From: Agrobacterium tumefaciens
GTDB taxonomy: Bacteria; Pseudomonadota; Alphaproteobacteria; Rhizobiales; Rhizobiaceae
NCBI GenBank assembly: GCA_017744915.1
Contig: JAGIAH010000006.1
Coordinates: 62,001-126,000, forward strand
DNA length: 64,000 nt
Reading direction: 5' to 3'
Within the stretch, counting starts at the first letter, position 1. The number at the start of each line of letters is the position of its first letter. Shown in pieces: positions 6,610 to 9,844 of the stretch. The notes under the pieces were generated by a model. That model saw only the letters and a list, made by a program, of their open reading frames with translations, was not told the origin of the DNA and did no database searches. The position numbers and the translations under genes were made by a program.

Positions 6610-7572
6610 TCAGTTGCGCAGACCGGTGGCCACGACGGAAATCTTGAAGGCACCGTCGAGCGTCGGATCAAAGGAAGCGCCCATCACGACGTCGGTTTCT
6701 TCGCTCACCGCTTCGCGCACCAGCGTCATCGCCTCGTCGATTTCATAAAGCGTCAGGTCATTGCCGCCTGAGATGGAGACGAGCGCGCCGCGCGCCTCCT
6801 TCAGCGAGGGTTCGCCGAGCAGCGGGTTGGCGATGGCTGCGGCCGCCGCTTCCGAAGCGCGTTTTTCGCCCTTGGCCTGCGCCGTGCCCATCAGCGCGCG
6901 TCCGCCGTTCTTCATGACATAACGCACATCGGCAAAATCGAGATTAACGAGGCCTTCACGCAGGATGAGATCGGTGATGCAACGCACGCCAAGCGACAGA
7001 ACCTTGTCGGCCGTCTTCAGCGCGTTTTCGAAGGTGGTGCCGGCGTCCGCAATGCGCAGCAGGTTCTGGTTGGGAATGACGATGACGGTATCGGCGGTGT
7101 TCAGCAGGTTGGCGAAGCCATATTCGGCCGCCCGCATGCGCCGTGCACCTTCGAAGCTGAAGGGAAGCGTGACGACGCCGACGGTGAGGATGTTCTTCGC
7201 GCGGCAGGCCTCGGCAATGACGGGAGCCGCACCCGTGCCGGTGCCGCCGCCCATGCCGGCGGTGATGAAGCACATGTCGTAACCGCTTAAGTGATCCATG
7301 ATCTCGTCGAGGGAATCGATCGCCGCCTGACGGCCAACCTCGGGATCGGCGCCCGCACCAAGACCGCCGGTCAGCTCGGAACTCAGTTGCACGAGCCGCG
7401 GCGCATTGGTTTTCTTCAGCGCCTGCGCATCCGTATTGGCGGCAATGAAATCCACCCCGCCAATGCCCTCGGCAATCATGTTGTTGATCGCATTGCCGCC
7501 ACCGCCACCAACGCCGACGACGGCGATATTGGGCGTGTTGCGGGCGATGGTGGCGCGCGGAGACTGGGTCAT
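6610..7572 (-). CDS. ftsZ: Truncated FtsZ paralogue (GTPase domain only)
   Basis: This 320-residue tubulin-like GTPase has the complete FtsZ core: a glycine-rich nucleotide loop (VGVGGGGGNA, residues 18-27), the tubulin signature GGGTGTG at 108-114, and the T7 synergy loop NLDFADV beginning at N210 with D212. It ends at about residue 320, just after the GTPase fold (FKISVVATGL). It therefore lacks the long linker and the conserved C-terminal peptide that binds FtsA and other membrane partners. Agrobacteria are known to carry such a shortened second FtsZ besides the essential one. It could co-polymerise but should not tether itself to the membrane. It is a single gene with its own terminator. 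Confidence 0.93.
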   Translation of the reverse strand: MTQSPRATIARNTPNIAVVGVGGGGGNAINNMIAEGIGGVDFIAANTDAQALKKTNAPRLVQLSSELTGGLGAGADPEVGRQAAIDSLDEIMDHLSGYDMCFITAGMGGGTGTGAAPVIAEACRAKNILTVGVVTLPFSFEGARRMRAAEYGFANLLNTADTVIVIPNQNLLRIADAGTTFENALKTADKVLSLGVRCITDLILREGLVNLDFADVRYVMKNGGRALMGTAQAKGEKRASEAAAAAIANPLLGEPSLKEARGALVSISGGNDLTLYEIDEAMTLVREAVSEETDVVMGASFDPTLDGAFKISVVATGLRN

Positions 7573-7950: not shown

Positions 7951-8394
7951 ATGTTGGCAGACGTTTTGCAAAGCGAACCCGGTTTCCGCACGGAACAGCC
8001 GCGCGTGCTGATCGTGGAAGACGAGTTCCTCATCGCCATGGATATCGAGGATTCCATTTTGCAGGCGGAAGAAGAGGCCGATGTCATCGGTATCGCCAAC
8101 CGGCTGGATGAGGCCGTGGCACTCGGCAGCCGTGCCGACATCGCCTTCGTCGACGTCAATCTTGCCGACGGTCAGACCGGCCCGGAGATCGGAAGGCGGC
8201 TTTCGGAAGATCATGGCGTCGTGGTGATCTTCATGACGGCGAACCCTGAAGTCGTCCTCAATCTCGGCATCGGCGCCGGCGTCATCGCCAAGCCCGTGCC
8301 GCAGGATGCAGTCGAACAATGCCTGTCCTACGCGCTTGCCAAACGCGCCGGCACCCATGCCGTAACACCCATCGGCATGATGGCTTTCGACTGA
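7951..8394 (+). CDS. Single-domain response regulator (receiver only)
   Basis: This 147-residue protein is one CheY-like receiver domain with no output domain. The acidic pair lies in IVEDE (E23, D24), the phospho-acceptor is D68 in AFVDVN, the switch threonine is T96, and the conserved lysine is K114 in AKPV. The start at 7951 has a GGAG site. The frame is open 28 codons further, but that stretch covers the candidate promoter. No histidine kinase is adjacent. The EcfG-like promoter hints at the general stress response, where receiver-only proteins are common, but the partner is unknown. Confidence 0.85.
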   Translation: MLADVLQSEPGFRTEQPRVLIVEDEFLIAMDIEDSILQAEEEADVIGIANRLDEAVALGSRADIAFVDVNLADGQTGPEIGRRLSEDHGVVVIFMTANPEVVLNLGIGAGVIAKPVPQDAVEQCLSYALAKRAGTHAVTPIGMMAFD

Positions 8395-8432
8395 AAGATT
8401 TTCTGAAAACGAAAGAAACACCCGAAAACAAA

Positions 8433-8466
8433 AAAGCCCGCCGCGGGAGGAGGTGCGGCAGGCTTT
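8433..8466 (-). ncRNA. Cuckoo-type small RNA hairpin 1 (also terminator)
   Basis: A stem of 11 pairs with one mismatch (8433-8444 against 8455-8466) presents CCTCCTCCC in its loop on the minus strand (8445-8453). It is followed on that strand by a T-rich tract (8422-8435), so it also ends transcription. CCUCCUCCC is the anti-Shine-Dalgarno-like motif that defines cuckoo RNAs (CcsR in Rhodobacter). This is the most distal of four such hairpins downstream of a DUF1127 gene. Confidence 0.82.
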
Positions 8467-8478
8467 CTGAAAAGATGA

Positions 8479-8508
8479 ACAGCGATATGGGAGGAGGAAA
8501 ACCGCTGT
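8479..8508 (-). ncRNA. Cuckoo-type small RNA hairpin 2
   Basis: The stem ACAGCG (8479-8484) / CGCTGT (8503-8508) exposes CCTCCTCCC (minus strand, 8489-8497) in an 18-base loop. The loop motif is identical to its three neighbours while the stem sequence differs. It is probably processed from a common transcript. Confidence 0.8.
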
Positions 8509-8513
8509 CCCCG

Positions 8514-8547
8514 GGGCAATCCTTTGGGAGGAGGAGTAGGATCGCCC
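8514..8547 (-). ncRNA. Cuckoo-type small RNA hairpin 3
   Basis: A stem of 9 pairs with one mismatch (8514-8523 against 8538-8547) has the CCTCCTCCC motif (minus strand, 8526-8534) in the loop. Pairs are conserved although the stem sequence differs from hairpins 1, 2 and 4, as expected if structure is under selection. Confidence 0.8.
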
Positions 8548-8559
8548 GCATTACCAAAA

Positions 8560-8581
8560 GGATGTGGGAGGAGGTACATCC
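8560..8581 (-). ncRNA. Cuckoo-type small RNA hairpin 4
   Basis: The stem GGATGT / ACATCC (8560-8565, 8576-8581) exposes CCTCCTCCC (minus strand, 8566-8574). It is the first of the four in the direction of transcription. The 8586-8824 stretch upstream of it shows no gene, only GC-rich hairpin-forming sequence, and may hold a promoter or the processed 3' UTR of the DUF1127 transcript. Confidence 0.78.
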
Positions 8582-8824
8582 GTTTCGATGATTTGAAGAT
8601 AGCATTTTTCTGCGCGTTTCACAGGCACAAGGTTGCAGCGCAGATATGCGTTCATTGCATGGCGATCTCCGCGATGGAAAATCCGGGCGAATATTCGCGG
8701 GAGCCCGGGTGTTCCCGGCACCGGGAGACGGCCAAATCTTTGCCCGCGACACGGCAAGGCTCCGCATGCAGTGAATGGCATCGTCGCACCGGCGAACGGC
8801 GGAACGGAAAGCTCCAAAAACAAA

Positions 8825-8845
8825 AACGCCCGCGAAGCGGGCGTT
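8825..8845 (-). terminator. Rho-independent terminator after the DUF1127 gene
   Basis: The perfect stem AACGCCCGC / GCGGGCGTT has a 3-base loop, followed on the minus strand by a run rich in T (8814-8826). It is 31 bases past the DUF1127 stop. Read-through would lead into the four cuckoo hairpins. Confidence 0.85.
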
Positions 8846-8876
8846 GAAGCATTCACAAGTGGCGATATCGCCTTGA

Positions 8877-9023
8877 TTACTTGCCGATGGCGGCGCGGGC
8901 AACGCTGGTGATCTGGCTGCGATCGATACCGAGATCGTGCAGTTCACGGGTGCTCATGCGGCCCAGTTCGTTGATGGTCTGACGATATTTGCGCCAATTG
9001 TTGAAGCTGCGTGCTACGTTCAT
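8877..9023 (-). CDS. DUF1127 small basic protein
   Basis: This 48-residue protein, MNVARSFNNWRKYRQTINEL at the N-terminus then GRMSTRELHDLGIDRSQI, carries the DUF1127 signature (RxLxxMSxRELxDIGIxRxxI type). A GAAAGGG ribosome-binding site precedes the start. Such proteins are arginine-rich and bind RNA. In Rhodobacter the member CcaF1 is encoded just upstream of the CcsR cuckoo RNAs and affects their maturation. In Agrobacterium, DUF1127 proteins have been tied to RNA turnover and phosphate-related phenotypes. The same gene plus cuckoo arrangement is seen here. The precise targets are unknown. Confidence 0.88.
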   Translation of the reverse strand: MNVARSFNNWRKYRQTINELGRMSTRELHDLGIDRSQITSVARAAIGK

Positions 9024-9241
9024 GACATGACCCTTTCTGAGGTTTAGGTGACGTCAGTAACGTTTTCGTTCCGGCGTCCTTTGATGCCCTCTATATGCGC
9101 TTTCTCATGCTCAATGAACAGGCAGAATAAGGCAATCCACCCATGCGCTGGATGCAAGGGTTCCCATTCACCTCTTCCCGGAAAATGACGGGTGGCTGAA
9201 AATTCAGCCACATGGCGGACGATCTGAGCGCCCCTCGCCTT

Positions 9242-9844
9242 TTAGAACTTGTAGCGGACGCCGAAGACGTTGGCGTTTGTCGCGCCCTTCATATTGCCCA
9301 ATGTTTTGCCACCGCCGGAACGGTGGTGAAGGCGCCAGAAGAATTCCGTCGAGGAATCCTCGCTGAAGGAGACGTTGATCTCAGGCCCGAGGTAAAACAG
9401 GATGTTGGCGTTGCCGCCGTCCTTGATTTCCTGCTCGCGCTCGCGGCCCGGCTGTGCATCGGTCACCAGGCTGAGGCCAGCGGTAAAGCTCGGCGTGATG
9501 AACAGCCGCTCGCCGAGCCTGATCTGTTCATAACGCGCCACCGGGCCGGCCCATACTTCACCGGTGAAACCCTTGCCAAATCTGGCAGCGACGCCGATTT
9601 CGCCACCCAGTTTCACATTGCCGATGCGGTAGGGGTAAAACTGATAACCACCGCCCAGAATGGCGTTCCGTTCATATTCCACCGGAAAGAGGGCCGCGCT
9701 TTTCAGCATGTCCTCTTTGGTCAGCACGCCGCCGAAACCGAATATCGCTTCACTCGTCCGCGACGTCATATCTTCCGATGCGAGAGACGGTGTTGCCGCC
9801 AGTGCGATCATGGCCGTAAGCGACAGACGTGCTGCGATAGTCAT
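9242..9844 (-). CDS. Outer-membrane beta-barrel protein, possibly PagL-like
   Basis: This is a 200-residue exported protein. The signal peptide covers about residues 1-23 (TIAARLSLTAMIALAATPSLA-SE). The rest alternates polar and hydrophobic residues as in a small barrel and ends in phenylalanine (GVRYKF), typical of outer-membrane insertion. An internal FFWRLHHRSGGG resembles the catalytic H-x-S of PagL lipid A deacylases. The rest of the PagL active site (following Asn and the distal Glu) is not evident, so activity is doubtful. The start at 9844 has an AGGAG site and replaces a longer frame. It is apparently monocistronic. Confidence 0.65.
   Translation of the reverse strand: MTIAARLSLTAMIALAATPSLASEDMTSRTSEAIFGFGGVLTKEDMLKSAALFPVEYERNAILGGGYQFYPYRIGNVKLGGEIGVAARFGKGFTGEVWAGPVARYEQIRLGERLFITPSFTAGLSLVTDAQPGREREQEIKDGGNANILFYLGPEINVSFSEDSSTEFFWRLHHRSGGGKTLGNMKGATNANVFGVRYKF

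Follow-up and report, generated by a model that had tools for sequence, protein, structure and literature searches.

NfeR1 (Smr14C2), the founder of the ar14 family, is a small RNA of 123 nt with three hairpins, which combines CCUCCUCCC loops with variable stems (PMC10746234, PMC7143759). It represses mRNAs through these loops independently of Hfq (PMC10746234, PMC8844928), and its three motifs are used redundantly against transporter mRNAs (PMC8844928, PMC7143759). The NfeR1 promoter is of the sigma-70 type with a LysR box near -65; in S. meliloti, LsrB binds and activates NfeR1 via TGCA-N6-GCAT at -72 to -60 (PMC10746234), and an NtrC site has also been described (PMC10746234, PMC7143759). 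The LsrB/VtlR consensus is GCAT-N3-TG-N3-T (PMC8844928, PMC7486931). VtlR targets in A. tumefaciens include abcR1 and the DUF1127-type gene atu1667, whose promoter VtlR binds (PMC7486931); binding of the regulator, or a need for it in expression, has been shown in relatives for NfeR1, AbcR1 and atu1667 (PMC10746234, PMC8844928, PMC7486931). Four-hairpin forms of cuckoo RNAs were already described in 2011 as RFMSmelA099 of the Rhizobiales, a family built from S. meliloti, and DUF1127 has no match in the main text of that paper (PMC3927594). A DUF1127 gene precedes four CcsR units in the CcaF1-CcsR1-4 (CIN1) locus of Rhodobacter sphaeroides, where an RpoHI/RpoHII promoter drives a single transcript that is cut by RNase E, and where the operon has its terminator at the 3' end (PMC10253847).

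Here, we describe a four-hairpin array downstream of a DUF1127 gene in a 64 kb stretch of Agrobacterium tumefaciens DNA (the window). In our reading, to which we give a probability of about 0.85, the array is an LsrB-activated, separately transcribed and trans-acting small RNA of about 162 nt with four anti-Shine-Dalgarno loops, and the DUF1127 gene is a unit of its own; for the window locus, we infer LsrB binding, the targets and the redundancy of the loops. The family, the four-hairpin form and an ortholog detected by Northern blot are already known, and the fresh part is that the array appears to be switched on through a redox-type regulator site of its own, not as a piece of the DUF1127 transcript.

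The four-hairpin array

The features of the locus, all on the minus strand, are as follows, with their basis in brackets.

8428..8589, minus strand: four-hairpin anti-Shine-Dalgarno small RNA of the ar14/NfeR1/cuckoo type, about 162 nt (RF02344 match, fold, ends transferred from the C58 ncRNA C2_1831446F)
8553..8589, minus strand: hairpin 1 (5'), loop motif 8566-8574, outside the ar14 match (fold, motif scan, sub-threshold CcsR1 match)
8514..8547, minus strand: hairpin 2, loop motif 8526-8534 (fold, motif scan, arm swapping)
8477..8510, minus strand: hairpin 3, loop motif 8489-8497 (fold, motif scan, covariation)
8431..8468, minus strand: hairpin 4, loop motif 8445-8453, also the intrinsic terminator of the array with 14 pairs and a T run (fold, motif scan, covariation)
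8597..8602, minus strand: -10 element CTATCT, -13 to -8 from the inferred start at 8589 (sequence, C58 start, conserved in the genus)
8637..8659, minus strand: predicted LsrB/VtlR-type site TGC-N7-GCAT-N3-TG-N3-T before the array, -70 to -48 (pattern match, genus conservation)
8825..8845, minus strand: intrinsic terminator of the DUF1127 gene, between gene and array, 9 pairs and a T tail (terminator scan)
8877..9023, minus strand: gene for a short DUF1127 protein, 48 aa (PF06568, 60.2 bits)
9134..9156, minus strand: predicted LsrB/VtlR-type site before the DUF1127 gene (pattern match, genus conservation)

Across the whole window, CCTCCTCCC occurs four times and on the minus strand only, at the loop positions given above; the starts are 44, 37 and 40 bases apart and all four copies lie within 130 bases. 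Shuffling predicts 0.53 copies per whole window, and four copies were reached by none of 100 shuffles. The minus strand folds into four hairpins with one motif per loop (-64.1 kcal/mol, z -4.9, equalled by 0 of 200 shuffles), of which hairpin 4 doubles as the 3' terminator. In a comparison of arm pairings within the window, three of the four 5' arms have their best partner in their own hairpin, and that of hairpin 3 has two nearly equal partners, the 3' arm of hairpin 2 (-15.4) and its own (-15.2). Motif scan and fold thus agree on the four minus-strand hairpins with a common CCUCCUCCC loop (8589-8431) that had been noticed in a preliminary description of this DNA. That description had also proposed that the stems differ yet covary through compensatory pairs, had let the case for an RNA hang on their conservation in relatives, and had taken the minus strand as the RNA strand, all of which the comparison of related arrays bears out. 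For this comparison, 56 arrays were found among 60 loci, and 54 were aligned after L014 and L022 had been dropped as near copies. In these 54 Rhizobiaceae four-hairpin arrays, standard pairs make up 98.6% of the cells, against 37-52% in slid controls, and two-sided changes occur at 17 of 32 pairs, against a shuffled mean of 8.5; these pairs do not include hairpin 2, which was misaligned and was examined by arm swapping only. Swapping its arms between arrays weakens the mean pairing from -18.1 to -11.6 kcal/mol, and the native mean is reached by 9% of the swaps for hairpin 2 and by 13, 15 and 21% for hairpins 1, 3 and 4. Hairpin 4 is nearly invariant and so contributes little covariation. The stems of the aligned arrays contain 134 G-U cells but only 3 A-C cells, an excess which argues that the minus strand is the selected RNA.

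A covariance-model search supports the cuckoo/ar14 assignment of the preliminary description: RF02344 (ar14/NfeR1) matches 8429-8553 over its complete length (model 1-123) with 96.5 bits, above the gathering cut-off of 58.8. The CCUCCUCCC loops and covarying hypervariable stems of ar14 are all present, although the array has one hairpin beyond the three of NfeR1 and about 162 instead of 123 nt; in its four hairpins with a common anti-Shine-Dalgarno loop it is like RFMSmelA099. The array is therefore one small RNA of the known ar14/NfeR1/cuckoo family, in the four-hairpin form. Matches to ar7, ctRNA_p42d, anti-hemB and Atu_C9 and a second match to CcsR1 were discarded, as all lie far under their Rfam gathering scores. 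In the bacterial family, ar14 scores above the cut-off in 108 of 121 genomes. The window's genome has three such loci, the window array included; the other two carry three motifs each, and by text pattern no DUF1127 gene was found in the stretch surrounding them. Three tandem ar14 matches within a few hundred bases were seen in each of four other places (G091:C6 262030-262774, G110:C59, G141:C1 and G077:C10).

Within the genus, the gene-plus-array stretch is matched at least partly in all 39 genomes, the window's own included, and loci were available from 30 of them, in which DUF1127 genes were called by a loose text pattern. In these loci, which are related rather than independent samples, four motifs stand beside the DUF1127 gene in 25 of 30, three in two and two in one, and by the same pattern none was found on the DUF1127 strand in the remaining two. 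The four-copy array, which had been singled out for a targeted look, is thus not unusual in the genus, and four-hairpin members had been named in 2011 (PMC3927594).

As the preliminary description had claimed, the loops are of the anti-Shine-Dalgarno kind, their complement being GGGAGGAGG. Genome-wide, GGGAGGAG lies 3-11 bases before an ATG 47 times (some sites counted twice, with two ATGs), against 2 in a reversed control. Of the 47 matches, 30 had loci, which comprise 26 distinct reading frames; the Pfam scan took in the 19 frames that reach 74 residues and gave no family for two of them. Six of the 19 are transporter parts, namely five solute-binding proteins and one ABC ATPase; this is a raw share with no background rate, from which enrichment is not claimed. 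By analogy with NfeR1, our best guess is that the loops would act redundantly on transporter mRNAs.

The RNA in strain C58 and the two predicted promoters

An ncRNA of matching size is known from A. tumefaciens C58, where C2_1831446F was validated as an intergenic ncRNA of the linear chromosome (1831446-1831607, 162 nt, about 160 nt on a Northern blot; PMC3738593). Its RPKM values were 689 (YEP log), 272 (YEP stationary), 3458 (AB) and 3970 (induction) without TEX, and 10541, 2865, 25085 and 25357, respectively, with TEX (PMC3738593). The ar14 match at 1831482-1831606 of G007:C2, which is the ortholog of the window array, coincides with this RNA. The coordinate frame agrees as well: for a TPP riboswitch with a listed position of 312778-312932, the match on G007:C2 is at 312774-312876. 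The matching coordinates strongly indicate that genome G007 is C58. C2_1831446F is like the window array in its length, in its position beside the ortholog of the DUF1127 gene and in its strand relative to that gene; the window array is an ar14 match, whereas the main text of PMC3738593 mentions neither ar14 nor CCUCCUCCC. When the C58 start is transferred, it falls at window position 8589, so that the array transcript most likely runs from 8589 to 8428. A literature search for the tag C2_1831446F returned only PMC3738593. Among the publication listings and text passages covered, no link of C2_1831446F to ar14, cuckoo or LsrB was found. Control of the array RNA by LsrB may already have been described by Eisfeld in 2021, in a paper that by its title concerns LsrB and numerous sRNAs of A. 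tumefaciens.

The putative array promoter was recognised solely by its conservation and by the published start of the ortholog: its -35 element is weak, and a sigma-70 consensus scan of 8380-9250 returned no promoter (0, against 0.7 expected). Like that of NfeR1, it carries a LysR box at the expected place, with GCAT at -60 and TGC-N7-GCA at -70 to -58. The LsrB consensus precedes 26 of 28 genus arrays, at -74/-75 from the first motif in 25 and elsewhere in one, and was not found before the other two; the density in the same genus loci predicts 0.04 occurrences per 120-nt window. Of the 30 genus loci, 23 also have it before the DUF1127 gene, where it stands at -121 to -124 relative to the ATG, and of the seven promoters without it six have only TGC-N7-GCA and one has neither.

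In the 4.9 Mb of the window's genome, the full pattern has 14 matches, against 4 in a reversed control. Four of the 14 precede the array, the adjoining DUF1127 gene, a second short DUF1127 gene and a suhB/AbcR-type sRNA, to which a LysR gene is adjacent; the suhB family (RF00519) has been equated with AbcR1 (PMC3738593). Apart from the DUF1127 gene in the window, two short genes of this kind stand in tandem at G000:C21 425183-425945 (L168); the first, with an LsrB-type site at 425037-425059, may correspond to atu1667.

The upstream unit agrees with the preliminary description, which had listed a 48-residue DUF1127 gene followed by a terminator. A terminator scan of 8380-9250 gave three sites, against a shuffled mean of 1.2, and two of the three are the DUF1127 terminator hairpin (8845-8825). 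Of the 28 gaps between gene and array in the genus, 26 contain a terminator, and those of L029 and L033 lack one. In L009 and L010, a palindromic repeat (TCATCCTCGGGCTTGACCCGAGGATCC and its complement) stands between the DUF1127 terminator and the array, with the terminator and the array promoter intact. A gene for an FtsZ of only 320 residues also lies near the sRNA locus, at 6610-7572 of the window (TIGR00065, 375 bits, match to residue 319), which we take to be FtsZ1 of Agrobacterium.

The upstream unit may already have been detected under another name. A VtlR-dependent RNA of about 300 nt, VrsA/L4, and a site bound by VtlR have been placed in the interval that separates the 3' ends of atu4669 and atu4670, with the RNA antisense to atu4670 (PMC7486931). 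Locus L008, which is C58-like, has a frame of 200 residues with its end at 1310, followed by the LsrB site at about 1395-1417. An opposite frame of 80 residues, which overlaps the DUF1127 gene, has its end at 1569, and a transcript from the LsrB-site promoter to the terminator would measure about 270 nt. From this layout and length, VrsA/L4 is probably the mRNA of the 48-residue DUF1127 protein; its described place fits the DUF1127 transcript, i.e. the upstream unit rather than the array.

Alternative explanations

The preliminary description had likened the locus to CcaF1-CcsR1-4. The gene order of this analogy stands, as a DUF1127 gene lies directly upstream of four hairpins on the same strand, and DUF1127 frequently adjoins CcsR-like RNAs in alphaproteobacteria (PMC10253847). 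What is not supported is the operon implied by it, in which the array would be the 3' part of the DUF1127 transcript, reached by read-through of the terminator and converted by RNase E and the DUF1127 protein into several short RNAs. In CIN1, gene and array share one transcript, whereas here a strong terminator, a variable spacer and a conserved promoter directly before the array lie between them. CcsR1 does match hairpins 1-2, but at 35.2, below its gathering score of 65.3. Moreover, the ortholog in C58 is a single species of about 160 nt, one band near full length whose signal is higher after TEX (PMC3738593), which speaks against maturation linked to RNase E and DUF1127. Owing to the terminator, the separate promoter and the single ortholog RNA, we rejected co-transcription of the Rhodobacter type as the main reading and regard it as very unlikely. 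The notion that the GGGAGGAGG copies are mere DNA repeats or a plus-strand feature, with no RNA at all, has a negligible probability: identical loops with differing stems would also be seen in a dispersed repeat, but the two-sided stem changes and the strand-specific G-U pairs, on which we rejected it, are those of an RNA, and for the ortholog it is refuted by the Northern blot (PMC3738593).

Control of the array promoter by another LysR-type protein or by an alternative sigma factor, instead of LsrB, is unlikely but deserves some weight. Other LysR proteins are present in such genomes, and the site is at the same time a generic T-N11-A box. The LsrB consensus was found in only 9 of 29 ar14 loci from the family search, so that an LsrB site is not a general feature of ar14. 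Against this stand the rarity of the full site, 4 of whose 14 matches precede the array, two DUF1127 genes and the suhB/AbcR-type sRNA; the identification of abcR1 and atu1667 as VtlR targets in A. tumefaciens (PMC7486931); and a spacing between site and start that matches the -72 to -60 of NfeR1 (PMC10746234). We prefer LsrB (VtlR) as the activator.

In the preferred reading, an LsrB-activated RNA separate from the DUF1127 mRNA, transcription of the minus strand of the array would start at 8589, from a sigma-70-type promoter of its own that LsrB (VtlR), a regulator of the LysR type, activates at the predicted site, and would stop at hairpin 4. Each loop would present its nine-base anti-Shine-Dalgarno sequence unpaired, and the loops would redundantly block translation of mRNAs with a GGGAGGAG-like ribosome-binding site, those of transporters among them. 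The DUF1127 gene would be a separate unit; since it has its own terminator and its own LsrB site, gene and RNA would share a regulator, not a transcript. Sequence, structure, covariation, strand, terminator and conserved LsrB-type sites were seen directly at the locus. The RNA itself was established by others in C58, as were LsrB activation and target repression for NfeR1.

Gene and array in other alphaproteobacteria

A survey of named genomes for arrays of at least four motifs yielded at least 118 stretches, which form a non-random sample: among the matches listed, 40 belong to Rhizobiales, 71 to Rhodobacterales and 7 to other orders. Orders were taken from the record titles (one Rhodobacterales record, titled Maritalea, was placed there by default), DUF1127 genes were called by profile search, and two of the records, L047 and L127, come from genomes that also supplied the genus loci L018 and L026. 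Among the matches listed, a DUF1127 gene lies at most 900 nt upstream in 22 of 40 Rhizobiales, 60 of 71 Rhodobacterales and 3 of 7 others, and the gap between gene and array holds a terminator in 11 of 22, 0 of 60 and 1 of 3 of these, respectively. The LsrB consensus precedes the array in 28 of 40 Rhizobiales, 0 of 71 Rhodobacterales and 0 of 7 others among the same matches, and the looser TGC-N7-GC(A/G) in 18, 11 and 1. Most Rhodobacterales gaps among the matches listed span 13-32 nt, which leaves no room for a terminator, and 14 of 60 are at least 54 nt long. Pattern matches under Lachnospiraceae, Deltaproteobacteria and Paludibacteraceae titles (L091, L099 and L148) are probably due to chance or repeat-rich sequence. 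Five Rhodobacterales loci (L130, L139, L078, L103 and L111) have 12 to 17 motifs in a row, with a repeated spacing of 41-40-29 in L139.

Within the Rhizobiales, the eight listed records from outside the Rhizobiaceae (Brucella rhizosphaerae, three Mesorhizobium, Pseudaminobacter, Aurantimonas, Fulvimarina and Pleomorphomonas) have gaps of 19-70 nt with no terminator and no LsrB consensus. The Rhizobiaceae-type set of 32 arrays, 29 assigned by genus name and 3 from Rhizobiales without a genus, has the LsrB consensus in 28 of 32 among the matches listed. DUF1127 lies at 161-322 nt in 14 of these 32, with a terminator in 11 of the 14; it was not found upstream in the other 18 of the matches listed, 4 of which have less than 900 nt of upstream sequence. 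An array that often appears alone in Rhizobiaceae would fit its independence from the gene, and would weaken the idea of one fixed split locus.

The survey pattern, taken without a tree, suggests that the DUF1127-array operon was split on the Rhizobiaceae branch. We consider the chances about even that an ancestral DUF1127-cuckoo operon was cut there in such a way that a terminator closed the gene, a new LsrB promoter arose before the array, the common redox-sensing regulator was kept and an intact four-loop RNA was freed from maturation by the DUF1127 protein; the corollary would be that VrsA/L4 is the DUF1127 mRNA. An Agrobacterium RNA that had been validated without a family is now tied to the anti-Shine-Dalgarno family, with a predicted regulator, and the contrast with the Rhodobacterales offers a testable case of how a small RNA can part from its host gene's transcript and still keep the same regulator.
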